Part shown: one piece after another, positions 1 to 62,703 of the stretch | Numbering within the stretch: position 1 is the first letter of the stretch | How the letters are laid out: the number at the start of each line of letters is the position of its first letter | DNA from: Cheilinus undulatus | Lineage: Eukaryota > Chordata > Actinopteri > Labriformes > Labridae | Reading direction: 5' to 3' | Assembly (NCBI RefSeq): GCF_018320785.1 | Contig: NC_054873.1 | Span: forward strand, 29,912,196-29,976,195 | Length of the DNA: 64,000 nucleotides | Notes under the pieces: generated by a model | Database searches by the model: none | What the model saw: only the letters and a program-made list of their open reading frames with translations | Told to the model about the DNA's origin: nothing | Program-made: the position numbers and the translations under genes

Positions 1-3000
1 TGGGGAATTACACTTACATTTCACACATTAACCATGTTTCAGAGCGCTTTGTTGTTGCAGTGATGGCTTTGGAAAAATAAACAATAATGCGTACATAGCA
101 TAAAATCTCCATAAACAAGACCACAGGTATTTGCATCACTTCCTACATAGAAATACGCATCATTACATGTTGGGCATAACAGTTCACATGATTCTTACGT
201 GTCCCTGCCCAATAGCGCAACCCAATCACACACACACACACACAACAGGAAGTGGCATATTTTCCTGGGAATTCTTGTTTATTCCTCGTCTTGTTAGCCA
301 TTAGCCTGCACAGGTAATATTGTGTTTATCTGTTTTCTTCAAGTCTGTTGTAGCACTTGAACCCACCACCACCACCCCTCATCGGAGGACAAATAAAATC
401 TATGCTGTTAACACTATAGAATCCAGGATAGCGCCAGCGCTACCATTAGCATATTCATTTTTGATTGTCAGTAGATTTCAAACCGGATAAGATAGATTGA
501 TCATTTTCTTTGCATACAAAATCTGGGGAATTACACTTACATTTCACACATTCACCATGTTTCAGAGCGCTTTGTTGTTGCAGTGATGGCTTTGGAAAAA
601 TAAACAATAATGCGCACATAGCATAAAATCTCCATAAACAAGACCACAGGTATTTGCATCACTTCCTACATAGAAATACGCATCATTACATTTTGGGCAT
701 AACCGTTCACATGATTCTTACGTGTCCCTGCCCAATAGCGCAACCCAATCACACAAACATTCACAAAAGGATGTGGCATATTTTCCTGGGAATTCTTGTT
801 TATTCCTCGTCTTGTTAGCCATTAGCCTGCACGGGTAATATTGTGTTTATCTGTTTTCTTCAAGTCTTTTGTATCACTTGAACCCGCCACCACCCCCCCT
901 CATCGGAGGACAAATAAAATCTATGCTGTTAACACTATAGAATCCAGGATAGCGCCAGCGCTACCATTAGCATATTCATTTTTGATTGTCGGTAGATTTC
1001 AAACCGGATAAGATAGATTGATCATTTTCTTTGCATACAAAATCTGGGGAATTACACTTACATTTCACACATTCACCATGTTTCAGAGCGCTTTGTTGTT
1101 GCAGTGATGGCTTTGGAAAAATAAACAATAATGCGTACATAGCATAAAATCTCCATAAACAAGACCACAGGTATTTGCATCACTTCCTACATAGAAATAC
1201 GCATCATTACATTTTGGGCATAACCGTTCACATGATTCTTACGTGTCCCTGCCCAATAGCGCAACCCAATCACACAAACATTCACAACAGGATGTGGCAT
1301 ATTTTCCTGGGAATTCTTGTTTATTCCTCGTCTTGTTAGCCATTAGCCTGCACAGGTAATATTGTGTTTATCTGTTTTCTTCAAGTCTTTTGTATCACTT
1401 GAACCCGCCACCACCCCCCCTCATCGGAGGACAAATAAAATCTATGCTGTTAACACTATAGAATCCAGGATAGCGCCAGCGCTACCATTAGCATATTCAT
1501 TTTTGATTGTCGGTAGATTTCAAACCGGATAAGATAGATTGATCATTTTCTTTGCATACAAAATCTGGGGAATTACACTTACATTTCACACATTCACCAT
1601 GTTTCAGAGCGCTTTGTTGTTGCAGTGATGGCTTTGGAAAAATAAACAATAATGCGCACATAGCATAAAATCTCCATAAACAAGACCACAGGTATTTGCA
1701 TCACTTCCTACATAGAAATACGCATCATTACATTTTGGGCATAACCGTTCACATGATTCTTACGTGTCCCTGCCCAATAGCGCAATCCAATCACACAAAC
1801 ACGCACACTTACAACAGGATGTGGCATATTTTCCTGGGAATTCTTGTTTATTCCTCGTCTTGTTAGCCATTAGCCTGCACAGGTAATATTGTGTTTATCT
1901 GTTTTCTTCAAGTATGTTGTAGCACTTGAACCCACCACCACCCCCCCTCATCGGAGGACAAATAAAATCTATGCTGTTAACACTATAGAATCCAGGATAG
2001 CGCCAGCGCTACCATTAGCATATTCATTTTTGATTGTCAGTAGATTTCAAACCGGATAAGATAGATTGATCATTTTCTTTGCATACAAAATCTGGGGAAT
2101 TACACTTACATTTCACACATTCACCATGTTTCAGAGCGCTTTGTTGTTGCAGTGATGGCTTTGGAAAAATAAACAATAATGCGCACATAGCATAAAATCT
2201 CCATAAACAAGACCACAGGTATTTGCATCACTTCCTACATAGAAATACGCATCATTACATTTTGGGCATAACCGTTCACATGATTCTTACGTGTCCCTGC
2301 CCAATAGCGCAACCCAATCACACAAACACGCACACACACAACAGGAAGTGGCATATTTTCCTGGGAATTCTTTTATTCCTCGTCTTGTTAGCCATTAGCC
2401 TGCACAGGTAATATTGTGTTTATCTGTTTTCTTCAAGTTGTATCACTTGAACCCACCCCCCCTCATCGGAGGACAAATAAAATCTATGCTGTTAACACTA
2501 TAGAATCCAGGACAGCGCCAGCGCTACCATTAGCATATTCATTTTTGATTGTCGGTAGATTTCAAACCGGATAAGATAGATTGATCATTTTCTTTGCATA
2601 CAAAATCTGGGGAATTACACTTACATTTCACACATTCACCATGTTTCAGAGCGCTTTGTTGTTGCAGTGATGGCTTTGGAAAAATAAACAATAATGCGCA
2701 CATAGCATAAAATCTCCATAAACAAGACCACAGGTATTTGCATCACTTCCTACATAGAAATACGCATCATTACATTTTGGGCATAACCGTTCACATGATT
2801 CTTACATGTCCCTGCCCAATAGCGCAACCCAATCACACAAACACGCACACTTACAACAGGATGTGGCATATTTTCCTGGGAATTCTTGTTTATTCCTCGT
2901 CTTGTTAGCCATTAGCCTGCACAGGTAATATTGTGTTTATCTGTTTTCTTCAAGTCTTTTGTATCACTTGAACCCGCCACCACCCCCCCTCATCGGAGGA

Positions 3001-3732
3001 CAAATAAAATCTATGCTGTTAACACTATAGAATCCAGGATAGTGCCAGCGCTACCATTAGCATATACATTTTTGATTGTCGGTAGATTTCAAACCGGATA
3101 AGATAGATTGATCATTCTTTTTGCATACAAAATCTGGGGAATTACACTTACATTTCACACATTCACCATGTTTCAGAGCGCTTTGTTGTTGCAGTGATGG
3201 CTTTGGAAAAATAAACAATAATGCGCACATAGCATAAAATCTCCATAAACAAGACCACAGGTATTTGCATCACTTCCTACATAGAAATACGCATCATTAC
3301 ATTTTGGGCATAACCGTTCACATGATTCTTACGTGTCCCTGCCCAATAGCGCAATCCAATCACACAAACACGCACACTTACAACAGGATGTGGCATATTT
3401 TCCTGGGAATTCTTGTTTATTCCTCGTCTTGTTAGCCATTAGCCTGCACAGGTAATATTGTGTTTTTCTGTTTTCTTCAAGTCTTTTGTATCACTTGAAC
3501 CCGCCACCACCCCCCCTCATCGGAGGACAAATAAAATCTATGCTGTTAACACTATAGAATCCAGGATAGCGCCAGCGCTACCATTAGCATATTCATTTTT
3601 GATTGTCGGTAGATTTCAAACCGGATAAGATAGATTGATCATTTTCTTTGCATACAAAATCTGGGGAATTACACTTACATTTCACACATTCACCATGTTT
3701 CAGAGCGCTTTGTTGTTGCAGTGATGGCTTTG
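1..3732. repeat. Tandem satellite array, unit about 511-533 bp
   Basis: Seven full head-to-tail copies and a partial eighth are visible. Each begins with TGGGGAATTACACTTACATT, at 1, 534, 1045, 1566, 2093, 2608, 3135 and 3662. Copies look more than 95% alike; length differences come from a short CA-rich tract and a C-rich tract inside the unit. The last copy breaks off after about 70 bp (GTGATGGCTTTG) and joins the next array. The array probably continues left of the window. A 62-codon ORF in one copy (2223-2411) is not open in the others, so I see no coding potential. Confidence 0.97.
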
Positions 3733-32405: not shown

Positions 32406-35400
32406 ATGAACAAGTCCAGGTCCAGTTGGGATAAAGTCTCCCATACCCCAGTTAGCAGGATAACCCGCAGCTCCAGCACTCAGGCCCGACACGTTGGCCC
32501 AACAGAGAGCAAGGACCCGGGTCCAGGTACATATGGAAAACAAAGGAAGAAGCAGACAGACTCTGCTCTGGCCCAGGACCTGAGTCAAATGAGCGTGAGC
32601 GGCCAGGACGCTAGGTGAGGAGACATTACGTACACCATTTAAAAGAACATAGTTCAATTAGTTTAACATATCACATAACTGCATTAGCTCCAGTTATAAA
32701 ATGATCTTTTTGTCAAAAAAGGAATTATGTCTTCTTATAAAAGTTTATCTGCAAATCATCATTTTAAAAGGTGGTCTTTTCTAATGCCCTGCCTACCTGT
32801 GATAAATAGCAGTTAAATGTTTTAAGGGATATTTCAGTATTTTTGAAACTGGTTGTATGAGGTACATGCCAATGGCATAGCCTCCAGTGATTTCAGTGTG
32901 AGTTGCCCCTTTGAGAAGTACCCGCCTCAGCATATTGTCATACCCTCATCAGCTGTCTGGGTCTGCGAGCTTTGACAAAGAAATGACAACAAACTTAGCT
33001 AAAACCACTTATTCCAGGGCCACTTCAACAGCTGACACAAAGTGTTCAGAAGGTAAACATTGGGCCAACTGTGACTTGTCTAATTATCAGCCATTATAAT
33101 AATAAAACCACCAAAAATTTACTTGGATGGCAAATTTTCCCTTTTTTCATGTCTTCTGGTTGGGGTTTATTATTATTATGTTTTTTTCAATTTACTCTGA
33201 TAAAATTGAAGAAGGTCCGTGAAACCAAGTAAGGCAGGGAGCTCTGGATGGAGAGTGATGCAGACTGCTGGCATCTGTGAGTTGCTATCCTCGATCAGAA
33301 TTAACCTGAAGAAGTGTTGTGAAATCAGTAGCTTGGGCTCGCAGTTTGCACAGCTACACCACAAGGTAACTTGGGATCTCTCCTACAAACCAGTCTACTC
33401 TAAAGTTTCTCTCCTCTTTCTTTCTTCCCACCGAGTTTCCATCTGTAGAAGTTCCTCTGTATACTCTGGCTCATTATGATATCCCATCATATCCACAGTA
33501 AACAGCATGTAGCTGGTAGGTTAAGCTCTCATTGCAAAATAGTGCCAAACACAGAGGCTTTCTGGGGTGAAAAAAATAGCACTATAGCGTACAATTCATC
33601 CAGCGTTGTATTCCTTGCCAGTTTTTGCCTGAAACTTGGTGTATTACACGGAGAAAGTGTACCTGTCTGTAGCGCTGTATATGCTAGCTTCATTGCCAGA
33701 GTCTTCTTTAAGAGGCGATGCACACTGATATCACTGGAGGTTTATGCTACTACTATTGTACCTTATGCATCCAAACTTCCAAATTTACGACTTGTATAGA
33801 AATTTTCTAGTCTTATCACTCAAAATGCGACATACTGCATGTCACTTTTAACCATTTACACCAAATTAACACACGGATGACAGAGAAATGCTATGCAACA
33901 TGCTGATAAATATCCCATTCATACCCATTCACACCTGTACCTTCAATCACCTTATGCTTGAGAGATGCCCCAAAAACACTTCATTTCTTTGTGTACCATT
34001 TGGCCAGAAAGTATAGCATTACATAAATCAATGATTAGAAGACAAAACATCAAGTAGATAAAAAATGTACATAAATGCAGTTCAAAGCCTATCAATTCAA
34101 CTTATTGTATACATTTCATCATTCAAAAGAAATATGAATAAATGTCTCAATTCAAAAAATGCTACTTAATACAGAAGATATTTCTGCAAAAACTGTTTCC
34201 TGTTTATTACCTGATGTGAAACAAGACTTGAGACTAGGACTTCCCAGCTCTGCTATTAGCTCTGTGCAGCTGTGTAAAATGCTAACATCAGCATATTAAT
34301 ATATCAATGTTTATCAGCTTTAACATTTTAGCATCATATTTTAAATCACTGGCATTAGAACTCTTGCCTTGTTCATATGAGGACTTGTGAGGTTTATTTT
34401 TTAATTTTTCCTTCACCTTTTTTTTGTTTGTTTTCACAATGAGTGCCATAATCAGCATAAAAAAGTGTTTTTAAAAAGTGTGCTGCCGGCTTGTTGTGAC
34501 TCTTGCTTTATAATCAGCTGCTTATTTATAGTGATGTTTTTTTTCTTGTGTTATTTCTTGACCTGCTCTTCAGGCAAGGAAAAATGTCCAAAGATGTTCG
34601 AAGTGCTCCGGTGCTGGCCTGTCCATCCTCTGAGTCCAGATCAGATCCATGTAAGCCATCTGCTGTAAAGTCCTCATCTCAGGGCGGTTTGGCCTCTGTG
34701 GCTCGGCTGGTGAAGCTCGGTCGCTGCAAGAAGGTGGTGGTTGTGGCTGGAGCAGGAATCAGCACCGCCAGTGGCATCCCAGACTTCAGGTCTGTTTCTC
34801 TCTAACATCATCTTTATCTTTTAACTCAGCTATCAAGTGGGACTGAACCTGTAAAATTTAAAGTTGAGAACTGTACAGTGAAGATAGTAGTAGTGTTTGT
34901 CACCTTTCTTTAAATATTTACCAAGTTTTACCAAAAAGCCCATTGAAGTTCTTGCGCATCTTTGTTTTCAGAACTCCAGGAACAGGTCTTTATGCCAACC
35001 TGGAAAAGTATGACATCCCATACCCAGAGGCTATTTTCAACATTGACTACTTCACCAACAACCCGCAGCCTTTTTTCTCTCTGGCAAAGGCTCTTTATCC
35101 CGGCAGCCACCGACCAAACTACATACACTACTTCATCCGCATGCTTCACCACAAAGGCCTGCTGCTCCGCATGTACACACAGAACATCGACGGACTGGAG
35201 AAGTGTAAGTGACAAGCTTTGACAAGCTGGACCTTCCAGACGCAGGTGTCTTTATACTGCAATCACTTGAGAGACATTTGCTGCACTCGGGTGATCTTTT
35301 CGCTAATTGTGAGACTACTAAAACCAGTTGACTGGACCTGTGTTTAATTGGGTCAGTCACTTTAAAGGGGGTGATTATTTACACAGTCACTTATACTTAT

Positions 35401-38307
35401 TTTACCACCTTATATATTTATATTTAATTGACTTTTGAATTTACTTTGTAAAATCTGATTTCACTTTGATATTAAAGAGGGTTTTTTAATTTTTTGTCAA
35501 AACAGCCAAATTTATATTATTGACCTTAATTGATGTATAAAAACAATCAAGGGGGTGCATATTTTTTATACACAGTGTAAATAAACTCTGAGTTTCTCTG
35601 AGCATTTCAGCAAACCTGAGTCTTCTTGCGCATATTGAAGAGGTGGAGTGAGTTGTATATCTTTATATATATAAACCAGTCTGCTCTCAGTTCGTTAAAT
35701 TTCAAAATCTGCTGGTGGCAAACTATTACATGGGATAAAAAAAAAAGTAACAGAAAAATCCAAACTCAAATCAGCACAGCCTCGGCTACATATACAGAAA
35801 AAAACTGTTAAATACAATCACACAGGGAATGGGTAAATTTATGATTTCAAAACAGAATGAAGTAAGGATAAATCTTAACTTTTGAATTGCAGATGAAATC
35901 AGTACTTGAACAGGCAAAAAGAGGATCGGTGCCATAAAATGATTCCTGAAAGCTTTTTATTGAGACTCTAGAAACACCTTGTTGCTCCTTCACTGTTTTT
36001 TAGATGACCTCTTTGTAGTTTCAGTCATAGAAACAAAGCCTGTTTGCCTTTTCAATGATGCGGGGACATTTTGAGTTAAATAGTTTTTATGCCCATCATC
36101 TGGAGATGAGCTGGATCTGTTCATAATTTTCCTTTCTCATGTGTTGGTAACATCTTGAAGATTTGACAGTCAACTGGCTCTTTGCTACCTTAACAATGTC
36201 ATACATTCTTGTTGTCTTTCTTCTGGTCTTATTGTCAATATGCAACATGTAATCATTTTTTTCAGTGTGTGGCATCCCGGATGACAAACTTGTAGAAGCT
36301 CACGGTAGTTTTGCCACAGCTTCCTGTCACCTGTGCTACACTGCGTACCCTGTTGAAGATGCTAAGGTATATCTCTGACAGTTAAAAACCTTTCCCTGTA
36401 AAGACAGTTACTCTCTGCCTCCACTCTTCTCTATACACCTCAGTAATGCTTCCTTTATCTTTGTTTTGCAGCTTAAAATAATGAGCGACACCATTCCCAT
36501 ATGCTCATTCTGTGCTGCTACTGTCAAACCTGATGTGGTGTTTTTTGGAGAGGATCTTCCACAGAAATATTTCCTGCACACTAAAGACTTCCCTAAAGCA
36601 GACCTGCTTATTATCATGGGCACATCTTTACAGGTATCACTAACACATCTGTTTGTTTTTTTTTAAATAGGTTCATAGGACTAGTTGCAAGAAGTCAAAC
36701 CTGCAGCTCGGTTTATTTAAACCATGATATTATTATTATCATTAGTACTATTTTTATTATTATTATGTTTTTTTTGTTTGTTTGTTTTTTTTCAGATTGA
36801 GCCATTTGCCAGCCTGGTGAACACAGTGCGCTCTACTGTGCCTCGTCTCCTCCTAAATCGACACGCTGTGGGTCCCTTTGAAAAGGTCCCTTTGCGCAGA
36901 GGAGACCACATGGAGCTGGGTGACCTGGCAGACACGGTGCGGAGGTTTGCTGAAATGCTTGGCTGGAATGATGAGATTGAAGAGCTGATGAGAAGTCAGG
37001 AGGCAGTGGTGGGTCCCCACTCAAACACCTTACGCTGCGATAAATTTATGTTAAATCCAGGGGAAAAGGTCTTGTCTATGCACTTTGTACGTGTATTACA
37101 GGAATTGTATTATTAGGGAAAAAAACAACTTTATTTTACAAAGCACAGACAACCTTGTCAAGACAGAAGCTTAAATGTCACATTAATGGGACGTGCATAT
37201 AAATGATGTAGTAGTTAACTCCTCTGTATTTGTCAGACTCACAGCAGTGAAGGCTGGTCCAGTTGTAGCAGAGATTTCTTCCTTTTTTTTTATCTTACAT
37301 TATTTTCCTAATAGAATTCTGTTTCATTACCACTAAGATATTAACTCCTTTTAAAGCTGGGTTAAGGTCTCATGTATGTCATACTAGAGGCTCCATCGTA
37401 GCATCAAGATGTTCTCACCCAGGCGATAACAAAGAGAGCAAAAATGGACAGTTTTGCCTATAAGCTACAGTACAAAACAATACAGTACCACACACTTGGG
37501 AGTTCCACTTGAACTACACTGTAAGGACAGAAGTATTTGGCTGCCTGACCATTACACCAACAGAGACTGTAATGACAAAGTATTCACAAACATTTACTTC
37601 AATCTGTAATTGGCCCTGCTTTTGCCGCTGTTATAGCCTCGACTCTTCTTGGAAGCCTTTCCATAAGATTTTGGAGTGTTTTTGTGGGAACATGTGCCCA
37701 ATATGACAATATGATATGCTACATGGGGCCAGCAATGATAATAAAGCTCTCCAATAATTTCTACAACATGAGATCTATTACTAAACATTCATATCATGTT
37801 TGATCCTGATATCTGAGTAGCTGAAGAAAACAGTTGACTTTGAGAAGGATTAGGGAATTTATTCAGTGCATACTAGTTTCAGTTTCATGTCTTACTATGC
37901 TTCATCTTTTAACCTCTTTGTAACACCATCTGACAGTATCCTTCTCAGTTTATCCCACTGTTTTATGCTCGGGACAGTTGACTTCTGTCCATACTAAAAA
38001 AAAACATCCATATTGGTCACCTCTGATTCAGTAATTGCACAAGAATTAGGAGGAAAAATACATTGCCATATTGATATTTTGCTCCACCCCTGCATATGCT
38101 TATAGTTACTTTCCCTCTCTACAGAGCATCCCTCCTCTGATCAGCAGCCTTCCATCAGTGAGCGAAAACGCCCCTTTGCAGAGCAGAGGAACTTCTGAGA
38201 CGAGCAGGTCTAGACCAGGGGCTCATAGAGCAGCTAGCAGTGACAGCGAGGGCACAGACTCAGAGACGGACAGCAAGAGCTCTGTGTCATCCAGCCGCAG
38301 CAACTGA
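32406..38307 (+). CDS. sirt3.2: SIRT3-class sirtuin (SIRT3.2 lineage inferred), NAD-dependent deacylase
   Basis: Sirtuins remove acyl groups from lysines using NAD+; the SIRT3 branch acts mainly in mitochondria. Exons: 32398-32614 (first in-frame ATG 32406), 34574-34789, 34972-35204, 36266-36366, 36472-36633, 36796-37008 and 38125-38307. Every junction is GT/AG and every phase fits, giving 438 residues. Motifs: GAGIST (129-134), [22 protein letters not shown] (from 211), EAHGSF with catalytic His232, zinc cysteines 240/243/264/267, [26 protein letters not shown]. The PYPEAIF, LLINRD-like and LGWxxEM-like blocks point to SIRT3 rather than SIRT2. The last exon adds a Ser/Asp/Glu-rich tail (379-438) not found in human SIRT3. 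The N-terminal 69 residues are basic and Ser-rich; a further 5' exon is likely. The name rests on the rfx4-ric8b neighbourhood. Confidence 0.9.
35360..35585. repeat. Decayed Tc1/mariner-type terminal repeats in a sirtuin intron
   Basis: AAAGGGGGTGATTATTTACACAG and, 200 bp on, TCAAGGGGGTGCATATTTTT followed by ATACACAGTGTAA resemble the ends of teleost Tc1-like elements. No transposase remains. Limits are approximate. Confidence 0.4.
37510..37705. repeat. Tc1-like terminal region in the last sirtuin intron
   Basis: The stretch contains GACAGAAGTATTTGGCTGCC, TGACCATTACACCAACAG and CTCTTCTTGGAAGCCTTTCC followed by AAGATTTTGGAGTG. These words are typical of the inverted-repeat region of a teleost Tc1-like transposon. 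Only one end is present. Confidence 0.6.
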
Positions 38308-38699: not shown

Positions 38700-38705
38700 A
38701 ATAAA
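38700..38705 (+). terminator. Polyadenylation signal of the sirtuin gene
   Basis: AATAAA lies 393 bp after the stop codon, in TATTTAATAAAAGTATTG, with a T-rich stretch just downstream (38716-38740). This predicts a 3' UTR of about 410 nt. Confidence 0.6.
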
Positions 38706-41103: not shown

Positions 41104-42805
41104 CTAGTCAGAGTCTGATCCCGAGTCATTCACATGCGGATCAGTTAGAGTCTCCTCAAGAGGTGCCAACGTCCCATCCGGTCGGACTCCCATCGGTCGG
41201 ATGACGTTCTGCCTGTAGACAGGAAAAAAAAAACACTGAAGGATATCCGCTTTTACTGTAGGGAAATGTTAATTAAACTCGCAGTACATCAACTTGGTTT
41301 AGACTTTCATGGGAAACAATATTTTCTTAGAAGGTCTTTCACTTGTACATCTTCTCTCTCTCTTACATTCAGAGCTCAAGGACCCTCACTCCATAACCCC
41401 ACCCCCTTCAGTGACACTCACCCCAGTCAAGCCATCCTCTCTCCCCCTCTGCCCTCCTCCCCTCTCCTGTGGCAGTTTAATTACAGGATCAGCGCTCTGA
41501 CTAATCTCCTCAAAGCCACGGCTACCCCTTCATCCTAATCCAATTATACCTGCACTGAGTGTCACCACTCCCTCTGAGATGATTTATCAGAGAATTATCC
41601 ATCAGAGATTTAAAAGGGAGCCATTTACATTCATTTGAAAGAGATTTAAATCAAAATGGATGTGTAATACCTGCTGATTCCTGCAGTTAAATTTGACTTC
41701 CCCCGGGAAAACTAAAGGTTAAAGTCTTTGAAAGGAGACTTGTTGTACACCTACAACCACAATTAGTATGCGTTACTCTAAAATACTTATATTAGTATAA
41801 TTTTAGTGATGAAACCTTAACAAAGGTCCAAGCAGTCACCGGTCAAAGTCAGCAAGTAAACAAAACAAACAACAACATGTGACATCATATATCCTGATTA
41901 GAGCAAAAAAAAAACATCCCCTCTGAGCACCGCATGATGAAGGACTGGGGGTTGTAGGGAGAAGAGGGGGCGGTGCAGAATATTTGCTAATTGGAGGACC
42001 AGTTAAGCAGTTAGGAGAGCACATTCTTGCTAGGCTCTGACCGATCTCCTGAGAGGCTGTGCTCCACCATCATCACATCTCTTTTACCGATGGAGAGAAA
42101 AAAAGAATCTTTTTCCTCTGGGTGCACGTGCCTCATTACAGCTCAACCCCCTTTTTTGGCTTTACAATGACAGGGCCAGCTTTCTATGACTCCACAATTG
42201 TTCACCCACGCATCTTCTTCCGTATCCACGTTCCGCCAAAATCGCTTTGTCTACTTTTGCCTCTGTATCAGTCTGATCCCTGTCAGACGAACAAACGACT
42301 GACTCCTCAGAATGAAAAGAATAAAGTCAGGATGTGTTATTAAAAGGCTGAATGCGGCACATAAAAGAACCAAGGCCGTGTGTGCCAATTAGGTGATAAT
42401 TAACGTGGCAGCGGTGATGATGCTACGGTGGCGTGCCAGCAGCCTCCAGCTGAATGCTGCGGCACGCTGAAGTCCAGGACTAATTGAGGCTTCGGCTAAC
42501 GGAGAGAGATTCTTCCTTTGATAAGTCAGTTGGCAAGGAGCCTCTCACGGTTACCTTTGTCCTGACGTTGTGCTCGACTAACATTAGCCTCTGCTCACTA
42601 AGGAAAGGTCAAAAAAGTACAGCAGAGGTTTATGCAGAGGAAACAATGAATAAAATCAATCACTTGGGCTGAAAAGCAGACAGAAAATGGTAATCATATT
42701 AGTCCAGCCTTTGTAAATGGAAATACTTCAGAATGTTGTTAAAACATCTTATTTGTTGTTTTGTAAGAAGGATATCTGAAAACATCTTAAAAAGTCATTC
42801 TTCTG

Positions 42806-42856
<51 letters not shown>

Positions 42857-45800
42857 AAATACAGAAAAAGAATGACTGGAGCCTAAACTGCAAAAACTCT
42901 GATATAATGCTGAGGATTCAGACCTCAGAGCATAAAATCATTTTTTGTGAAGATTTACAGAAAAACATTTGAACATTTTCAGCATTTTCCTAAAAGCTAC
43001 AGGTCTCACTCGAATCAAAATTATCTTTTACTTTTATCAAATGATCACAGATGAGTCACAACTTCTATTTTTTTTTTCCTTATGCAGCCAAAATTAATCT
43101 GATTATCAGGTGGATGAGCCAAAGTTGTTAATGTAAAGGATGTAGCATGTAGCTAACAGCTAGCCATATTTAGCTTATTTACTCTGAAATTATGTTATAC
43201 TGCAAAAGATTTTTGAGTTTTGAGAGTGGAGGCTCTGGATGCTGATGAATCTGTTAGTGTGTAGTGTGCTGTGTTGGTCATCTTGTTGCACACCAAACAC
43301 TAGAAGAACAAAACATTTAAACCTGTCATCATTTGTCGTCCTGCATTTAAAATTGGTTAATATAAAAAAGATCTTTTAGTGTGAGCCAGGCTTTACGTGC
43401 TAAATATCACATTGGAGTCTCTCCAAAGCGACTTGTACAGCCTTTCGTTGTACCTTCCTACTTCCAGCTCCAGTCACATCTCTATGGTAAATGACTAGAA
43501 TTAAAAGTTTCCTATAAAGTTGTGCTTTTAAAACAACTTAATAGTAATGTTTCTAAATAGTCCTATAGTGCCTTGATATGTTTTCTTTCATAACAAAACT
43601 ATGTGTTCAGCATATAAATTTACCTTGTTAACTTGTCAAACATATTGGCGAGTATATTTGCTTCATACTCCTTCTGTTCCTCTGTCATCTCTTCAATTGG
43701 GTTTGGCATCGGCTCCTCAACGTGACCAGTGATGGGGTTAATGCTGGGACAAGAACAGGAGATATTTTAATGTATAGAAGCCTCAATAACATATTCAAAG
43801 ATCATCAGCACATACACACTACTATATTGAACAACATTACTACAGACTGTCAGTGTATTGAGTTTAGTGCAGTACTCACAAAGGTTTTGCAGTTTTGTAC
43901 TCCTCAGTGTCCGAGTCTTCATCCTCAGAGTACTGAGTCTCTCCTCTCCCTCCAGCAAGAAGTCCACGAGCCACCAAGAGTCCTGCTGCGTTTCCATATC
44001 CTGTGTACTTCAACAGGTTGTCCACTGCAAAAACACAACACAAACGCACAGGTATGACGATTGCATTACCTCTGAATGTGCACCACTTTATCAGTTTCAT
44101 CCAAATATGCACCGAATTTCTGGTTAAACACGCTGATACTTCCGCGTCTGCTCACTGCAGCCTCACTCACCGCTTTCTTTACACAAGACAAAGAGAAACT
44201 CTGCAGCCGTCTGCTTCACTCCCATATCCACATGTGTCATAAGGCGAACCAGTTTGTTTCTGACAGTGCTACCAATCTCTGGTCTGTTCTTCACATCCTT
44301 CAGCGGAGGGAGTACCTGAAATACAAATTATAAGCAGTCCAGATTATTGGTGTTTGGGCCATGACACCTTGTCACTGGCTTGTCAACACACACAAACATA
44401 AATGCTACTAAATTGCTATAAACGTAATTCAAAAGAGTGACATTTACTGTTTGTTTCCTTTACCTGAGCTTTGATATATCTGCGGATCTCCCTGTGGTGT
44501 CTAGATCCTTCAGTCATTAGGCTGAGCACCGGAGTCAAACCCTCTTTGTAGTTGGAGCCCTGCTTGAAGTGAAAAAAACAAAACAAAACAAAGACTAACA
44601 CTTTACAAGCTGGAATAGTGGCTGGTTTTAACCCATAGTTCCTACACTGGTGTTACAAAGGACTACAAAGTTTATTTATACAGTATGTGCATAATTTTAT
44701 TAGTTCACTATGGACACGCAGCAGAAAGTGAATGTTACCTTGTCAATCCTTTTCTCCATGAAGTCTAGTAACACCTGAACTGCATCCAGGTTTTTTCCTC
44801 CATATTTCTCTTGTCCTCCCTGGACAGGAAGGTCAATCAGCACGTCCAGGCACGGCACAGGCAAGTTATTCAGCAGGTTGACAGCATGGCTGGAGACAGA
44901 AAAAAATTTTACTACCTTTAAGTATTACTGCCAGTACAATAATCAATGTCAAACCATTACTTTGTGCATTGCGTACTTTATTCTTTAACTGTTGTTTCTA
45001 CTCTATTCTACTTACCAGCATTATACCCTATTCACTTTAGTTATCATATATTTTATGTTTATAAATTTCACACATACAGTTCTTTTCTGTGTTACTTATA
45101 CATTCTATAAGAAGTGGTAAAAGTTCAGTTACTCTGGTTAAAATTTACATAAGAAGTATTGTTTTGGAAATCTATTCAAGTAAAAGTAAACAGTATTTAA
45201 TTCAAAGTTCACTTTAAGTACTGAGTAGAAACTCAGGAGTTGTACATAATAGTAATGCCACTGATTTTTTGGAGCAACTTGATGCCAGAATTTCCTTTGG
45301 GATTAAATAAAGTTCCATCATTTGAAGGAGTCTGCATAAGATTGACACGACACTGTCATAATCAAGAAATGACAACTGTCATTCACACAAAGGAGACTTT
45401 ATCAATGTTGTCATTTAAGTCCCTGTAAAAATGGTAAAGAAAAAATCTGTATTTTAGGGTTGTTGTTTGACAGGCCACTGTGCCATGAAATAAATCAAAT
45501 CACAAGAAAACTATGATATCAAGGCAGTTACAGTGAAAGATGTGGAGACATTTTTCAGGTCACTCAGCACTTGAAGGGGGTAAATATTTGATACATTTAA
45601 AATTGCAGAAAACTGCAGATTTAATAATGCTGCTTTTAATTGGGACATGTATTGATTAAAAGTGTTCACTGACTACTTTTTATGAAAACTTAAAGAAGTC
45701 AATAAAAGACAAAAAAACGAGAAAGCATGTCTAGAGAGAAGGCTTTTGAAATGACAAAGTTCAGGAAATAAATTTGTGTCTTGAAAAGCGTAGATAGTGG

Positions 45801-48800
45801 GAATCTTTTAAATATTACAAATCCTTCCACCCTCAGTAAATAAAGAAATATATTTTGGCCTGGAAAGACAATTTTATTGAAATCCACTGTACAGCAAGGC
45901 TTTGATGGGCAATATACAGGTACAAAAAAAATTAGAATATCATGAAAAAGTTTAATATTTTTTGTCAGAAAAGTTCTAAGGCCCACATATCCCATAGGGT
46001 TGAGTACTGGGTTCTGAACCAAAAATTACATCAGGCAAAACAGAAGAATAAGTTTGATTATTGCCACATGTGATGTTTTGGGCCCTAGCTCTTCATCAGA
46101 CATAAGCCAGTTTTTGTCATTCGTTCCAGAAAGTGAAACCCATATATTATATAGACTTATTACACATAGAATAAAATATATCAAGCCTTTATTTCTTGAA
46201 ATTTTGATGATTATGGCTTATAGATAATGAAAACCCAAAGTTCAGTGTCTCAGAAAATTAGAATATTACATAAGATCGATAAAAAAGGATACTTAAAACA
46301 GAAATGTCGGGCTTCTGAAAAGTATGTTCATTTCTATGCACTCAGTACTTGGTTGGGCCTCCTTTTGCATGAATTACTGCATCAGTGCGGCATGGCATGG
46401 AGGCGATCAGCCTGTGGCACTGCTCAGGTGTAATGGAAGCCCAGGTTGCTTTGATAGCGGCCTTCAGGTCATCTGCATTGTTGGGTCTGGCGACTCTCAT
46501 CTTCCTCTTGACAATACCCCATAGATTCTCTATGGGGTTCAGGTCAGACTGGCCAATCGAGCACAGTAACACCATGGTCATTGAACCAGCTTTTGGTATC
46601 TCTGGCAGTGTGGGCAGGTACCAAGTTCTGCTGGAAAATGAAATCAGCATCTCCATAAAGCTTGTCAGCAGAAGGAAGCATGAAGTGCTCTAAAATGTCC
46701 TGGTAGATGGCTGGGTTGACTGTGGACTTAAGAAAACAAAGTGGACTAACACCAGCAGATGCCAGGGCAGCCCAAATCATCACTGACTGTGGAAACTTCA
46801 CACTGGACTTCAAGCAACATGGATTCTGTGCCTCTCCACTCTTCCTCCAGACTCTGGGAACTTGCATGCAAAATTTACTTTCATCTGAAAAGAGGACTTT
46901 GGACCACTGAGCAACAGTCCAGTTCTTTTTCTCCACAGCCCAGGTAAGACGCTTCTGACGTCTCTGGTTCAGGAGTGGCTTGACATGATGAATGCAACAT
47001 TTGTAGCCCATGTCTAGGATTCATCTGTGCGTAGTGGCTCTTGATGCGCTAACTCCAGCCTCAGTCCACTCCTTGTGAAGCTCCCCCAGATTCTTGAATG
47101 GATTTTGCTTGACAATCCTCTCAAGGTTGCAGTTATCCCTTGTGCTAGTGAATTTTTTCCTACCACACTTTTTCCTTTCACTCAACTTTCTATGAATATG
47201 CTTGGATACAGCACTCTGTGAACAACCAACTTCTTTAGCAATGACCTTTTGTGGCTTACCCTCCTTGTGGAGGGTGTCAATGACTGTCCTCTGGACATCT
47301 GTCAAGTCTGCAGTCTTCCCCATGATTGTGTAGCCTACTGACCCAGACTGAGAGACCATTTAAAGGCTCAGGAACCCTTTGCGGGTGTTTTGAGTTAATT
47401 AGCTGATTAGGGTGTGACACCATGACTCCAATATTTAACTTTTTTTTTTTTTTTAATAACATTCTAATTTTCTGAGACACTGAATTGTGGGTTTTTATTA
47501 CCTGGAAGCCATAATCATCAACATTTCAAGAAATAAAGGCTTGAAATATTTCACTCTGTGTAATGAGTCTATATAATATATGGGTTTCACTTTCTGAAAT
47601 GAGTGACAAAAATAATTGAACTTTTTCATGATATTCTTATTTTTTGAGATGTACCTGTATGTTTATGAATATGACTGAATCAGGTTTGGTGAATCTCATG
47701 TTTTAGATAGAGGTAAATAGATGTAATTCACTGATTCAAAATGGGGAAACTGGTGCTAAAGCAGCAGGTTATTAATGCAAATAAGCAAGATGCAGATAAT
47801 GAACAAATATATACAACCAGAAATTTAAAGTGTCATTATTAATTAATTATTGTGTATGTATATAGTAATCATAGAGATAAAATTAAAAAAGCTGCAGTTT
47901 TGTAAACAAATACAGTCATTAGATGAGCTAAAGTGCAAATACAGGGTGCAGAATCCACAAATAACATGAAAATGTGATAAAATTGATTAATCAGATCCAT
48001 TGACCAGCTGATATTAAAACATGCAAAAGGATGAAATGTGTAAACTTTTCAGAAGTAAAATGGAAGGCAGTAATCAAGCATTTATCCTGCTCATATTCTG
48101 TAATAAAACTCCAGCACACTAAATAGATCAGGCTGTAACACCTGCTCTGTCACACACTTAAAACTACATCATGTTGGTTAACAGGCCAAACTCCAAGGAC
48201 CAGATCAGCCACGGAAGAAACACTTTACATGACACTGTTTGAATATCAGTCCAGGGCCACACATTCTTGGCATTCCTGCATACAATTATCCAGGAGGAGA
48301 ATGTGTTGGTGCAAAGTTTAAGAAAACGTTAAATTTTAAAGAAGAAACTTGAAGCCTGTGACTGGAGTTTTGCAAACAAGTCTTACATTAGATGGAAGTT
48401 GCACTCTGATAACTTGCATGTAAGTCACAGTAGGCGATTTACAAGAAAGTGCATGAATACAACTTAGCTGAATATATGCTGTGAGCTTGTCTGAGCAAAG
48501 GAAGTGATGTCAGAGTCTTGCCTGAACAGCAGTCAGGGTCCGACATTAACGGTTGCCCGAATGCCCCGGGCAACTTCAAAAAGCCAACAGGCAAGCAAAA
48601 CTTGTAAGGATTTGCCCGATCGGGCAAGCACGACTCTGAGCTTTTCTATTCATTAATTTTATTATTTTCCTCTCTCGTTTCTGTTACTACGGAGCCCCTG
48701 AGTAGCCAGATGCAGTGTGTCGCTGCCTCCATTGGCTGAGCGTATCTGCTGACATGCAAACAGCTGCACAAACTTTAACTAAAAACCTTTATGAAGGTAA

Positions 48801-51800
48801 ACTCTGTCATCAGTAAAGATTCACGGTAGGTCACATCAATAAATCTGTTACACAAACAAAGAAGACAGGCTTTAACTTCCAAATTTAAAGGTTTATTATT
48901 TCAAATCCGTATTTTATTACCGTCGGATGCACTCAACAGAGGAACGTGTGTAAAGAAGAGAGCAGAGGAAGTCTGCCGGTGGTGCGTCTCTTCAGTTTGC
49001 TCATTAATTGAGCTGTGCTGTTGTGTTTAATCTGAAGCTTCCCATTTCCTCGTTTTAACTTTTTCTCCAGCCACATCCTCCCGATGCTCTCTATCACCCA
49101 GATCTTTGGACAATTATGCCAATGTGTGTCATCAATGAGCATAACACACACAGTTAACACGTGCAAATAACGTAATATCTAGTGAAAGTTGTCCAAATGT
49201 GGCTGTTTTATTTGATCTTTAATGCACTAATGATCATAAATATTGTCAGAAGAGCAGACATTTAAAACCAAAGCTCCAAAATGAGGCAGGGTGTTATGAT
49301 GTGTCTGGAGAGCTGAAGATGTGAGGCAGGGCTGGTTTTAGTCATTAGGAGGCCTAGGGCAAGTACTAATTTGACGCCCCTCCCCCTTTAGCTAAAGAAT
49401 TAATAATGACTGGAAAAAAATGAGAAAAGCATCTCTTTCATGTTAATAAAGCCACAGAACTCCAGTAAATGCCCCAATGTGAGATATAAACACCCAAATA
49501 GCCAACCATCATTTATCATTTTCTTTGAAAAGCATCTCAGAGCTCAAACTCAGCACATTCTAATATCTTAAAAAATCTTTAGGCCAGGTGGAACTTTCAT
49601 AACGCTGGTGTTGGGCCAAAGATTGGTATCTCCAAAATGATCACTTTTCAGGGAATGAGTGGTTTATAATTTATAAAAATGATATAAATATGATTTATAA
49701 AAACAAATTAAAATCATGAAAAATTGAGATACAAGGTTTTAGCCTGATGTCAGTGATAAATAAAATAATTTATTGTCATTATCAGTGACATATTGGTTCT
49801 TCTGACTCTATACAGACATTTGTATCCCATTTAACCTCATAGTTATCCACCAATCCACTGTTTTATTTAATTTTAACTACAGATTAACTATCTATTATCT
49901 ACCTTACATTCCCGGTTTGGATTGTGGCTCCCACTAAAGTATTTTTTAGACAATGTGGCTCTTTGGTAGAATAAGGTTGAGTATCACTGGTCTGTTACAG
50001 TTACTGGGTGGAACTGTGAAATAGCATGTTAAAGGGGGACTATGCAGTTTTGGGGAAGACATTTTTAATCAAACAACAAAAATCTTAATTGGTTGATTTT
50101 CACGTGTCGGCAAAATTTCTTCAGTTTCATGATGAATAAACCAAATAAACACAGAAGAAAAGCACCATTTTATACTTGGTGCATATGTAGCAGACCCCAC
50201 CACCTCTCTAGTGTCAGTGTTTTGCTGACCTCATTTTCCTCTGAGAATAGCTGGTTTCATCAGTTATGAAAAAAGTATTTCTGACTTTGTATTATTACCT
50301 TATTAGTATTGTAAATATGAAATTCATGAGTTTGAATTTCTTTGGAAAACAGCCTGGTGCAGCTTTCACATTGCACTGATCTGTACAAAATAGAATACAA
50401 TTTTCAGTGGGCTAACACATAGCTAATAAATACAGTTTTCTTAAAAAAAAAATGAAGTGTTGTGTATTGCTTTCCACAGTCGACAGGCAATGGATTTTAG
50501 TTCTAGGTATATTGTGAGCAAAATGAATGCACTTGACAGCCAGAAAAAGTACCTCCTGGACAGGGCAAGTAGGAATTTAGATGGGGAAAGTAGATTGGGG
50601 AAGTACTTGCCCTGAAGGGCAAGTAGGCAAAAACCTTAACGTCGGACCCTGGCAGTATTTCAGTGAATAATGAGTAAAAGACACATTAAAAACTCTGCAT
50701 ATTAAAGAAATAATTTCATCCTTGTTTTGGTTTTCTTTTGCAGCTAGCAGAAAGTAAAGTCCCTTCATATAATGTTGATGATGTAGCTTTTAGTGAATGA
50801 AATCAGTGAAGAGCAGAATCCCCACCTGTGTGCTTCCTCTGTTTTCTCCTCTGTCTCGGTCTTCTGCATCAGAAGGTGACGCAAGATGGCAACTATGAGT
50901 CGAAACTGGTGGTCATCCTCCTGTCAAATTAAGGATATCAAAACATGACTATCAAGGGCTCAACTTTTCAAACAGTTAAAAGTGAAGCAGAGACACAAAG
51001 GTAAAAATTAGAAATTACTTAGATAATACTGATTAAAAGCTACATAGTTACACAGAAAGAATAGCATGGGCTTTTCCAAAGAGTGATGACTTAATTTTAC
51101 TGAGTTGTTGAAGTGTTAGGATGTTGAGAATGCCTCCCCACTGTCACACTGTCATGACTTACTCACACTGCAAGCCTTAGTGCTCAATTCCAATTGTTTG
51201 CTCAGATCCGAATTCTTTGTTTGGCTTTTCCCATTAACCATTATGTGGCCTTGATTAGATATCTGTGTAAACTGGTCATGGTCCTAAACTGACCCACATG
51301 TACTAAAGCAGAGACATTAGCAAAGACATTGTAGCATGACATACTTTCAAGCACAAGTCGGTTGCAAAACCACTTAACTCTGCATTGTAGAGAAGAATCA
51401 TCCCAAACTCTCTCTGTCCTTACACTGACAACCTCCATCACAGCTGTCTTACAAGTTTGTTTTCATTGACTGTGAGTGACGTTCCCTGCTGCCTTTCCAG
51501 CAAGCACAGAACTACTACTGGTGTCAACCAATAGCGATGTCTAGGGGGTTGTCTATACCTTGCATTAACATCCACTTTGGACACTGGGTAGTTGGCTGCA
51601 CCAGGTGAAAGTCACATTTGCCATTTAGCAAATAAGCCCTGAAGGGTATCGTTCAAATCAATTAAAGAATGACAATCTACAAGGCTGGATCATACTTTCT
51701 GCTTAATGGCAGACAACCAAAGATCACCAGAGGTGAATGGGAGGTCTTAAACCACCAAACTAATCTGAATGAAGGCATCCCAGACTACCCTTGTATGCTG

Positions 51801-54017
51801 TTTGAGTTACCAGATATCAGTGTATCATTTCAGATATCATGTAGCATTTACATCTGCAATGTTAACAGCATAATTTCCAGGTCCATAACATTCCTCAAAA
51901 GCACCAGTTTCTCTGTTGAAGCTTTGTTTCCACAGATGACAACAGGTTATAAAATGGCTTCACTCTGGCTCACTTCAGGTGTAGGAGCCAAAAAAATACA
52001 TCTTCATGTGATTTTCTTGTAGTTTTGAAAGTGGAATGTGTTGTATTGTTTTTTCTTTGGGTAATTTTTGGCTTGGAGAAACCTTTATGAAGCAGTATAA
52101 CATGGACACATGTTAAGGTTTTGCATGAGCTTATCAAGTTTATCAGGTTTATCAGGTTTGTTTAAAAAAGGAGTTGTTTAGTGGTTTACCAGCAATTAAG
52201 ATTTTGCCAGTTTTCAAAAATTCTATATTGATGTGTAAAGGCTAAATAGATGTGGTGTAAAACAATAGCTGTACCCAAGACCTGTTTATGAGGACTTTCC
52301 CCCACATTTGATATTTAATTTCACTATAATTGTCTTGGCTTCACTTTTCCTTTATGTGCTAAACTGGTTGCACTGCTTATTACACAATGCATTCATGTTC
52401 CTGAAACTGTGGTTTTACATGTAATACAGTTGCCTCTATTTTTTCCTCTTCGTCATGAAGCACTCGATTTAAAAAAAACCATACATGTTAGGTGTTAAGT
52501 ATCCTCAGATGGACATTTACAAGACAAATAGTATTCGTATATAATATGAATTTTCTTGGGATCAGGTGTATGATCTTTGTAGTCCATTGCACTTGAATCA
52601 GCGACTGATCCTATGGCTGAATCAGACATATTTGGTGTCTGGTGATATTCCTGACCTGCTGTTGACCCCTTAGTGCAAAAAATCTTACTCTTTCTATAAT
52701 CTAACTCCTAAATTTAAGATTGGCACATCACACTCACCTCACCACGAGTGCATGATAGCGTGAGGTTGAATGCAGCTTTGAGTGCCTCCATCGCCCGCTC
52801 ATTATCCTCTGCAGGCAAGGGTAGGGCCTGAGGGTCTGGCGGGGCCGCTTCATATGGACCAACCCAGCGCACGTCCAAGGTGTGCTCCAGCACCTCTGTG
52901 AGGAGTTTCACAGCATGGCACTCTCTCCTTAAAACCCCTCTCAAATCAGGTCTCAGGGCAGAGAGCAGGAAAAGAAGGCGCAGCGTGAACAGGCCGACTT
53001 CGTGGTTCCATGTGCTGGCTGTATGCAGACTCTTGCAAAGGCCATGGGCCAGCTGCACGTCTACGCTGACCTGCTGAGCTGCAGGACTGTTGAAAACCAC
53101 ATTGCATAGGCACTTTAAAGCCTCCACAACCACCCTCTCCTCCTCCTCTGTCTGGGTGTCTTCCTGACAATTTTTCTGATTGTCGTCCCCCTCCTCTCCG
53201 GTGTGCAGTCTAGCCATTCGCCCCAGGATCAGCATACCCTCCCTGGTGGCTACAGGTGAGAGGACATGTTTGTCTCTGGACAGGATGCGGAGTGTCTCTA
53301 GACAAGTCCTCTGACAGCTGGGCTGTACCTGCCTCCCAAGTGCTGTCAGCACACTCTGACACAGTTTCTAAAATGACCAGGAGTGACAGATTATAGATTA
53401 CCACATAACTGGGATGCCATATTCATGTAATATACTATTACTCAGAAAATCATACTCACACTACGCAGGGTTTCTTCCTTTTTCTCAAAGTTAAAGGTGA
53501 GGCTGTTCTGGAAAATAAAAAGAAGGTGCACAGTGAGGATGAAAACACTGCAGACTGCTATTCAAAGACATATTTACCATGTTTACTTACAAGAAAATTC
53601 AGTCTCTTTGACGACATCATCTTGATGTTGCTTATATTTGTTAATACTATTGTTTAACTCCACATTAATATGGTTTGCAAGCAGTGCCGATAGCATTAGC
53701 AACATTACCTTAGCGATATAAAAAATATATTAAAATCCTAGATGCCTCTTTCAAATATAAAGTGAGAAATGTTTTATGACGCATATTTAGAAACAGAAAA
53801 CAATGATAAAGTCTCAGCCAAGCTGTGTTTGAAGCTGTGAGGCTTGCTCAAAGCTGACTGTTTAGCTAAGAAGCTAATGTTAGCATCGCTGTTTGTTTTG
53901 GTTGACGTAAAAAGGGAGAGACCCGCGACTCACCTCTCGATTATACTGCTGAAGAAGATTATTGGTTTCCTCCTCGTTGGTATTTTCAAGCTGAGACAAG
54001 ATGCTGTTTAAGTCCAT
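41104..54017 (-). CDS. ric8b: Ric-8B, G-protein alpha-subunit chaperone and guanine-nucleotide exchange factor
   Basis: Ric-8 proteins fold nascent G-alpha subunits and act as exchange factors in the cytosol and at the membrane; Ric-8B serves mainly Gs/Golf. Exons on the - strand: 54017-53934, 53509-53462 (approximately), 53367-52738, 50920-50826, 44889-44739, 44559-44464, 44315-44171, 44024-43880, 43743-43624 and 41212-41104. All phases agree, giving 540 residues. Landmarks: [113 protein letters not shown] (CK2-type sites), [19 protein letters not shown] and a final SGSDSD. The FNS, RDK and EEPMPNPI signatures match RIC8B rather than RIC8A. An acidic loop (residues about 101-122) is longer than in human. 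The 6-kb intron between exons 4 and 5 carries transposons. Confidence 0.95.
42360..42500. promoter_or_regulatory. Candidate conserved non-coding element in the last ric8b intron
   Basis: About 140 bp of GC-balanced, non-repetitive sequence has dense homeobox-type cores: CCAATTAGG, GATAATTAACG, GACTAATTGAGG. Between them lies GGTGGCGTGCCAGCAGCC, whose GCGTGCC pairs with GGCACGC further on. No splice sites or ORF explain it. This composition is typical of vertebrate developmental enhancers, and rfx4 is a neural developmental gene next door. Conservation cannot be judged from one sequence. Confidence 0.3.
42811..42852. repeat. (AT)n microsatellite
   Basis: About 21 uninterrupted AT units in a ric8b intron. 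Confidence 0.97.
45220..45440. repeat. LINE 3'-tail-like sequence and a GTCAT-rich repeat piece
   Basis: GAATTTCCTTTGGGATTAAATAAAGT resembles the 3' end of L2/Rex1-type LINEs. The adjoining part (CACTGTCATAATCAAGAAATGACAACTGTCATTC) echoes the MITE-like repeat at 10850. Both are short and degenerate. Confidence 0.4.
45968..46119. mobile_element. 152-bp insert in the left inverted repeat of the Tc1-like element
   Basis: The word TTTTTGTCA occurs at 45959-45967 and again at 46111-46119. The sequence between has no counterpart in the right inverted repeat, which runs on without a break. Removing it restores the match. So a small element inserted with a 9-bp duplication after the transposon landed. 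Its body includes TGATGTTTTGGGCCCTAGCT and CTTCATCAGACATAAGCC. Family unknown. Confidence 0.7.
46342..47359 (-). pseudogene. Tc1-like transposase, disabled
   Basis: N-terminal part: a paired-type helix-turn-helix ([12 protein letters not shown]..., [17 protein letters not shown]). It ends at TGA (47023-47021) where an arginine codon CGA is expected. The same frame continues through [19 protein letters not shown] (first catalytic Asp), VMIWAALAS and [11 protein letters not shown]. In that last motif the second catalytic Asp of the usual QQD is Asn. A one-base shift after VLDWPV then moves to [11 protein letters not shown] (third catalytic residue Glu) and the end near 46342. Three independent lesions: nonsense, D-to-N and frameshift. 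Confidence 0.9.
48534..50651. mobile_element. 2.1-kb TIR element without recognisable transposase, in a ric8b intron
   Basis: The left end CAGGGTCCGACATTAACGGT and right end ACCTTAACGTCGGACCCTG are inverted repeats. GCAGT flanks both sides (48529-48533 and 50652-50656), a 5-bp duplication. Subterminal sequences mirror each other as well (TTGCCCGATCGGGCAAG near the left, TTGCCCTGAAGGGCAAG near the right). No transposase motif is visible in 2.1 kb, so it is non-autonomous or internally decayed. hAT-like is possible but not proven. Confidence 0.75.
50927..52737. other. ric8b intron 3, no further gene seen
   Basis: Between exon 4 (ends 50920 on its 5' side) and exon 3 (52738). A 117-codon + strand ORF at 51669-52022 resembles no known protein and lacks splice partners. 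I treat it as chance. Confidence 0.5.
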
Positions 54018-55755
54018 GGTGGCTTTGTGCTGAAAATGGTGTTAGGTTGCGTTTAGATGTGACCAGTTAATGTTGTGGAGCTAGCTTGCTAGCTGGCAGG
54101 CTAGCTGTGAGTGCTACAGTCAGATCGGCTGTCAACGGCAGGGAAACTCCCCTCACTGTCTCCATCACAGACAGGAAAGACTGCTCCACCACCGAGTTCA
54201 TCCTGAATCTTTCAATAGAACTACCTACATTAACCAGAAGTTTTTATAACACAGTAAAGCAGGTCTGATAAGTAATGGAGTAGGGATCTGAGTATGAATA
54301 GATAAATAAATCAGATTAAGACAATTAAAACGTTTTTGCTCTTTCTGATTCATTTGTATGGAAGCCCGAAGGAGATGTCTAAAATATTTTTATCACCTCA
54401 TTTCCCTGAGTCGCCTTCATTTCTGTCATTTTTTCATTAAACAAGTATTAAGTTATCATTGAGAAACCAGTAAAAATAAAAAATAAAAACAATTTGAGTA
54501 ATGTTAACACGTGATGGATTATCATAAACAGGCTGTAATTTGCCCCAGACTGGCGCTCAAACTTTAAACCGATCCAACTAAATAAAAGAAATGCTCAACA
54601 AAGAAAACATAAATCACATGAAATATAATGAGTAGGAGTTGGTGCATGCTGACAAGGGGTTTACACTTTGGAGAAAACACCAAGAATCAACATGTTAAGG
54701 TCCCATAAAGGGAAATTTACAGCTTAAACACATATAGGACAGTAATTGTTTGACCCATAAATTTTGCTTTTCTACAGCCAGTTTATCTCAACAATTTTAT
54801 CAGAACACATAAGACCACTTCATGTTACAGAAGGTCATCAGAACACAAATAAACACTTCTAAGGCATGGTGTATAGTCTTCCTTTGGAGAAAAACAGGCA
54901 CATGGTGAAAAGAGAGAATAGCTTAGCATGATAGCTAACTTGTTTACAGTTATTGTAGCAAAATGCCTTCTTAACCAGATCCTTGACAGGAGCTACCTGG
55001 TGGCCATACCAATCCTACTTTTAATAAGTTTGGTTTAAAATGGATTTAGCTTCATCAATAACACTCTCAAATAATAACAAAAAAAAACACCACTGATAAA
55101 AAAAAAGTATTAAAAGCCTTTTAAGACATTTTAAATCATTGGAATGGTGAGCCATTCTGATTGGCCCAACAGCTCAAAGTCGGGCAGCCCTTCTGAGATT
55201 TTCCCAAACTCCAGACAACAAGTCCTTCACTAATGTGAACACATTGATGTATATTTTATATCCATACAGATATTAAAGTTCAAATCCAGACTTATTTAAA
55301 ATATTTATTTATTCACACAACATTCAGTGTTAAAGACTTGGATCAGAAACAGCCTAGCAAATGCATTCACCTCTATCACACTATTTTCTAATTTTTGCAG
55401 TCTTAAAGTACTGATTTTTCAAAGAAAAATCCACCCTGCCCATCTACATTTATGTGGTTCCTAAGGGGCAACCACATAAAGGTTTGGATCCACATGTTTG
55501 GAGCACACAGGGCATGCACAAGGGTTTTCTGTTTCATGGTTGGTAATTTTCTGTGGAAAACAAAAAAACTTTGAACGCTTTCCAACTAACCTAAAATTAT
55601 GCTATCCCATCCAATGATTGATATAAAACAACTTAATTCCAAAGATCAATACAACAAAAAAATAAAACATTGGTTTTATTGCAGTAGAACTTCATTGCAA
55701 ATTAAAGAGCAGTTTTATATATTTGGCATTTATATGACCTTACTATGAAAATGAA
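54018..55755. other. 5' flank of ric8b, intergenic
   Basis: The region just upstream of the ric8b start (54018-54260) is GC-richer, with CTAGC words and a few CpGs, and probably contains the promoter and 5' UTR. A CRE-like TGACGTAA lies at 53903 in intron 1. Beyond 54300 the DNA is AT-rich with no recognisable exon. Confidence 0.45.
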
Positions 55756-62430: not shown

Positions 62431-62703
62431 TTATTTGGCCCAGCCGGTGGTGGCCTCTCCATTAATGTAGGCAAAGCCAGGGAAATGCTGCGAGTGTTCA
62501 TACTCTGAGTTCCTGCGTGAGCCCAGAGGAGAATACATGTCTCCAGAGGTGGCATAACGGGATGAATGCATAGGTGGGCTGGTGTAACAGCTGTTAGCTG
62601 GGGACACGTCTGGCCACCGAGGGGCAACAGGTGCAGGGTGCAACCGAGGAGTGCTGCCCATCAAGCAGGGCTCCATGCGAGACATCTGGCCATTCAGCTG
62701 GTA
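62431..62703 (-). CDS. rfx4: RFX4 transcription factor, last coding exon (partial gene)
   Basis: RFX4 is a winged-helix transcription factor that binds X-boxes and controls ciliary and neural-tube development. Only the C-terminal exon lies in the window: 90 codons in phase 0 after the acceptor CCATAG (62704-62706), ending in TAA. It reads [36 protein letters not shown], then [14 protein letters not shown] and [17 protein letters not shown]. The last part matches the distinctive end of vertebrate RFX4 almost residue for residue. DNA-binding and dimerisation domains are encoded upstream, beyond 64000. The gene runs in the same direction as ric8b, as in human. Confidence 0.95.

Follow-up and report, generated by a model that had tools for sequence, protein, structure and literature searches.

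The sirtuin lineage SIRT3.2 was named by Opazo et al. (2023, Mol Biol Evol, PMC9897032), who describe it as having apparently disappeared in the amniote ancestor, with other jawed vertebrates retaining it. In their account the elephant-shark protein is mitochondrial, carries out NAD+-dependent deacetylation of a SIRT3 substrate peptide and raises ATP when overexpressed, and six residues of the catalytic domain are diagnostic of SIRT3.2 (their fig. 6). A study of fish sirtuins (PMC11172991) gives the locus order tmem263/sirt3.2/ric8b/rfx4/polr3b, reports a psmd13/sirt3.1 block, links the split of SIRT3 and SIRT3.2 to the second round of genome duplication, predicts mitochondrial targeting peptides for the Sirt3 paralogues of sea bream, renames the sirt3 of gilthead sea bream sirt3.2, and records a duplication of sirt3.1 in some percomorph fishes. 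In the usual synteny of SIRT3.2, POLR3B follows past RFX4, and MTERF2 and CRY1 past TMEM263.

Here we describe a sirtuin gene in a 64,000-nucleotide stretch of the genome of Cheilinus undulatus (the window). The gene is a SIRT3 paralogue. We consider it very probable that it is the orthologue of SIRT3.2, an early-vertebrate paralogue of SIRT3, most likely encoding a mainly mitochondrial NAD+-dependent protein-lysine deacetylase. A sequence-only reading of the window had put forward the same name and pointed to a survey of such a lineage, kept in fishes and amphibians and lost in amniotes. The survey is real (PMC9897032); it calls the amniote loss apparent and has the other jawed vertebrates retaining the gene.

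Gene model and catalytic domain

The seven coding exons (32406-38307, plus strand; Table 1) join into 438 residues in one frame, and all six introns have GT-AG borders. Six canonical introns in a single frame, together with an alignment to sirtuin-3 over residues 108-375, argue against a chance gene model. The complete seven-exon sirtuin with SIRT3-type motifs that had been read from the sequence is confirmed. An AATAAA lies 3' of the stop, at 38700. The acceptor-like AG shortly before the first ATG makes an extra 5' exon likely; it is probably untranslated and less probably coding. In the predicted tail encoded by exon 7, 24 residues are Ser or Thr. By eye, an alternative end is also readable: with the last intron kept, exon 6 continues for 35 more residues to a stop.

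Table 1. Features of the window (positions are those of the 64,000-nucleotide stretch)
Feature	Position	Strand	Description
Sirtuin coding exon 1	32406..32614	+	N-terminal region; open frame, GT donor; AG 8 bases 5' of ATG
Sirtuin coding exon 2	34574..34789	+	GAGIST...GIPDF(R), NAD-binding segment; GT-AG, in frame
Sirtuin coding exon 3	34972..35204	+	Ends at TQNIDGLEK; 233 bases, as in sirt3.1
Sirtuin coding exon 4	36266..36366	+	EAHG histidine and first zinc CxxC; 101 bases, as in sirt3.1
Sirtuin coding exon 5	36472..36633	+	Second zinc Cxx[16 protein letters not shown]; 162 bases, as in sirt3.1
Sirtuin coding exon 6	36796..37008	+	End of catalytic domain; 213 bases vs 210 in sirt3.1
Sirtuin coding exon 7	38125..38307	+	60-residue Ser-rich tail and stop; open frame after AG acceptor; predicted
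ric8b, convergent neighbour	41107..54041 (approximate)	-	Ric8 Pfam matches at about 43.6-53.3 kb; Synembryn-B better than Synembryn-A
Likely last coding exon of rfx4	62434..62703	-	Open frame

The Pfam SIR2 domain (PF02146) covers residues 129-310 with an E-value of 6e-56 and a score of 189.7 bits, against a curated cut-off of 24. The protein was compared with 177,635 distinct PDB sequences. Among the best 60 of 102 matches, the closest relatives (best E-value per protein) are sirtuin-3 (4e-109), sirtuin-2 (2.5e-87) and sirtuin-1 (5.6e-55), all of which we take to be the human proteins; sirtuin-3 outscores sirtuin-2 by about 72 bits. The motifs GAGIS, TQNID, EAHG and two CxxC pairs can be read in the protein. 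EAHG, CHLC and CSFC align with sirtuin-3; the catalytic histidine and the four zinc cysteines are present.

A separate sirt3.1 in the same genome

A PF02146 profile search of the genome produced 15 matches, which we sorted into eight loci by their similarity to the window protein and to SIRT3: sirt3.2 in the window, sirt3.1 (C1), sirt1 (C6), sirt2 (C2), sirt4 (C3), two sirt5-like genes (C7 and C13) and a sirt7-like gene (C4). The sirt1 and sirt2 assignments are backed by PDB searches, and the sirt4, sirt5 and sirt7 labels are presumptive and follow sequence motifs. No sirt6 was seen in this search, which scores best candidates only.

The catalytic exons of sirt3.1 occupy about 710.4-719.3 kb of C1 on the minus strand. 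What we take to be psmd13, recognised with a psmd13 query, starts beside it at 724.4 kb and runs in the other direction. This locus agrees with the psmd13/sirt3.1 block reported for fish (PMC11172991), and also with human 11p15.5, to which a published table assigns both SIRT3 and PSMD13 (PMC1459182). A sirt3.1 without the GAGIST exon was considered and ruled out, as the exon was located, about 7.4 kb 5' of the following exon; the intron that follows it (C1, about 712 kb) contains, by eye, short tandem repeats with a unit of about 28 bases.

With the borders of sirt3.1 set at canonical sites under guidance from the window gene, exons 3, 4 and 5 have the same lengths in both genes and exon 6 differs slightly (Table 1). 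Exon 2 measures 110 bases in both when counted from the aligned residue rather than from the exon start, and this segment is 54% identical over 37 residues. The likeness in exon lengths further supports a SIRT3-type assignment of the window gene. The matched pieces of the fish's own sirt2 break at positions other than the borders of these two genes.

Over the catalytic domain, sirt3.1 matches human SIRT3 at 196 of 267 residues (73.4%), whereas the window protein matches sirt3.1 at 151 of 269 (56.1%) and human SIRT3 at 154 of 267 (57.7%). We built a maximum likelihood tree (LG+G4) of seven sequences: the window protein, which is the single SIRT3.2 included, sirt3.1, human SIRT3, and SIRT2 and SIRT1 proteins. 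It joins sirt3.1 with human SIRT3 (support 95.9/95) and leaves the window protein outside. It is therefore sirt3.1, not the window gene, that groups with human SIRT3 as the mammalian orthologue would. Joining the window protein to either sirt3.1 or human SIRT3 gives a p-AU of 0.045 and a KH/SH value of 0.058; the AU exclusion is marginal and the KH/SH tests do not exclude these alternatives, so that the tree alone is moderately strong. Within those statistics, the claim of the sequence-only reading that the gene is paralogous rather than orthologous to mammalian SIRT3 stands.

Three other origins were weighed. The window gene could be a recent, fish-specific duplicate of sirt3.1, arising from the third-round duplication or from a segmental one, rather than the old SIRT3.2. 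The exon structure common to the two genes and the KH/SH value of 0.058 for their grouping are compatible with such an event, and duplicates of sirt3.1 are on record in some percomorphs (PMC11172991). Against it, sirt3.1 is nearer to human SIRT3 than to the window protein; the grouping also has a p-AU of 0.045, and the flank of the window gene, with ric8b and an RFX gene, is that published for SIRT3.2. We regard a recent duplication as very unlikely. A direct orthology of the window gene with mammalian SIRT3, after a move to a new place, is barely credible: sirtuin-3 is its best PDB match among the best 60 of 102, but this genome has in sirt3.1 a better match to human SIRT3. The neighbour of sirt3.1, psmd13, is listed with SIRT3 for one human BAC (PMC1459182), and the tree already unites sirt3.1 and human SIRT3 with the window protein outside. 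A SIRT2-type identity, to which the 113/190 (59.5%) and 113/193 (58.5%) identities with SIRT2 give some appeal, being over shorter cores and as high as the identity with SIRT3 over the whole domain, is just as hard to credit in view of the lead of sirtuin-3 in PDB scores, the split of the window protein and the SIRT3s from the SIRT2s and SIRT1s (93.8/93), and exon lengths that follow sirt3.1 while the fish's own sirt2 breaks elsewhere.

The ric8b neighbourhood and the ric8a question

The neighbours of the window gene point to SIRT3.2. As had been read from the sequence, it converges with ric8b, which lies on the minus strand with its stop 2.8 kb from the sirtuin stop and scores better with Synembryn-B (2.5e-172) than with Synembryn-A (9.2e-138 at best). 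Beyond ric8b, the open frame near the right end of the window resembles the C-terminus of RFX4. An exon for an RFX DNA-binding domain (C9:29993843-29993974, minus strand) lies 17.6 kb past the right end of the window on the strand of ric8b; it is the weakest of 10 matches and above the cut-off. The proposed rfx4 neighbour is present as an RFX gene, which we take to be rfx4. Together with the position in the tree and a second SIRT3 in the genome, the flank of ric8b and RFX, as in the published locus, upholds the name SIRT3.2; orthology of the window gene with SIRT3.2 of other species is inferred.

The other flank differs. All three matches to the TMEM263 family map to other places (C9:25.84 Mb, C9:37.20 Mb and C3:50.56 Mb), and a TMEM263 query found no match in the window or in the 30 kb to its left. 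We read this flank as rearranged, and the rearrangement seems to be local. Adjacency to TMEM263 belongs to the usual synteny of SIRT3.2; it describes the locus rather than the protein and does not settle the identity. Repeats occur along the window: about seven tandem copies of a unit of ~520 bases at 1-3600, seen as repeated reading frames, and, by eye, frames like the reverse transcriptase/endonuclease of non-LTR retrotransposons at 6-13 kb and 55.7-59.2 kb and Tc1/mariner-like transposase fragments in a ric8b intron (46345-47359, minus strand).

The sequence-only reading went further, suggesting that SIRT3/RIC8A and the window gene/ric8b look like products of one ancestral tail-to-tail pair and expecting a second SIRT3 beside ric8a. 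The second SIRT3 exists, on C1, but it adjoins psmd13. A Ric8 Pfam search of the genome gave 13 matches, spread over three loci (the window, C9:35.26 Mb and C20:18.72 Mb). C1 has none of them, and a 70-kb region around sirt3.1 gave no tblastn match to Ric8A or Ric8B; conversely, the PF02146 search has no SIR2 match near C9:35.26 Mb or on C20. The gene at C9:35.26 Mb is nearer to Ric8A, its best exon being 83% identical to Ric8A against 68% to Ric8B (tblastn with the PDB Ric8A and Ric8B sequences); in the PDB search its fragment scores nearly equally with Ric8A (5.8e-7) and Synembryn-B (1.8e-6), and tblastn separated the two better. A third, more diverged Ric8 gene at C20:18.724-18.729 Mb has mixed likeness. 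By tblastn, one of its exons prefers Ric8A (60% vs 49%) and another slightly Ric8B (114 vs 106 bits), while a fragment of it in the PDB search gave four matches to PPR proteins and matched Synembryn-B (0.00076) better than Synembryn-A (0.049).

With sirt3.1 adjoining psmd13 and no Ric8 match nearby, the ancestral pair rests on the human arrangement at 11p15.5, where we presume the order and orientation of RIC8A, SIRT3 and PSMD13. The three genes are listed for one BAC at 11p15.5 in a published table (PMC1459182); another row of the table repeats them with a second BAC at 19q13.31 and looks like a shifted row. The main texts of PMC9897032 and PMC11172991 do not name RIC8A, and our literature search found no paper treating RIC8A, RIC8B and SIRT3 together. 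One ancestral SIRT3-RIC8 pair is a plausible idea that draws no support from this genome, which lacks a ric8a-linked sirt3. The absence of this linkage does not refute the SIRT3.2 identity, since sirt3.1 has kept the psmd13 side. If real, the parallel between SIRT3-RIC8A and SIRT3.2-RIC8B would be a small point that could favour origin by genome duplication.

Predicted function and comparison with described sirtuins

The window protein is predicted to be a deacetylase. By the established class I sirtuin mechanism, NAD+ and an acetyl-lysine peptide would be held between the Rossmann fold and the zinc module, and with the histidine of EAHG as the base the reaction would yield nicotinamide and O-acetyl-ADP-ribose besides the deacetylated protein. 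If the window protein resembles its elephant-shark counterpart, as is probable, it acts chiefly in mitochondria, alongside sirt3.1.

The N-terminus has no obvious presequence. It is rich in Ser and Arg, with 6 K/R, 1 D/E and no Leu in the first 30 residues, and the top hydrophobic moment of 18-residue segments starting at residues 1-45 is 0.54; these values neither show nor exclude a presequence. Conceivably, SIRT3.2 in this fish lineage, having a phosphorylatable Ser-rich C-terminal tail and no strong presequence, is partly cytosolic or nuclear and divides the labour with a mitochondrial sirt3.1. We think such a division unlikely and prefer the mainly mitochondrial enzyme.

The window gene appears to be a typical and well-preserved representative of an already known gene, on a branch published in 2023, and adds one more genome to the evidence for an eighth sirtuin branch of jawed vertebrates, lost by amniotes. 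Data on fish 'Sirt3' may therefore come from a paralogue of human SIRT3 rather than from its orthologue.

Among described sirtuins, the window protein shares with SIRT2 the class I core, at 58.5-59.5% identity over the shared part, and differs in that SIRT2 has the lower PDB score and in the places where the pieces of the fish's own sirt2 break. With SIRT3 and sirt3.1 it has in common the catalytic domain, the zinc cysteines and, for the fish's own sirt3.1, exon lengths and phases; it differs in an identity of only 56-58% and in its locus, psmd13 being the neighbour of sirt3.1. These alignments were made directly to SIRT3 and SIRT2, and the comparison with SIRT3.2 is by locus, length and published description. 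Unlike the published SIRT3.2 locus, that of the window gene is without an adjacent tmem263, and unlike the elephant-shark protein of 372 residues (PMC9897032), the window protein has 438 residues and a 60-residue Ser-rich tail. The extent of the N-terminal region is similar: the SIRT3 alignment of the window protein begins at residue 108, and the modelled domains of shark, coelacanth, salmon and gar SIRT3.2 begin at 95, 113, 114 and 115 (PMC9897032). Like SIRT3.2 as published, the window gene has ric8b as its neighbour, followed by an RFX gene (in the published case rfx4), shares its genome with a separate sirt3.1, and takes a position sister to SIRT3.
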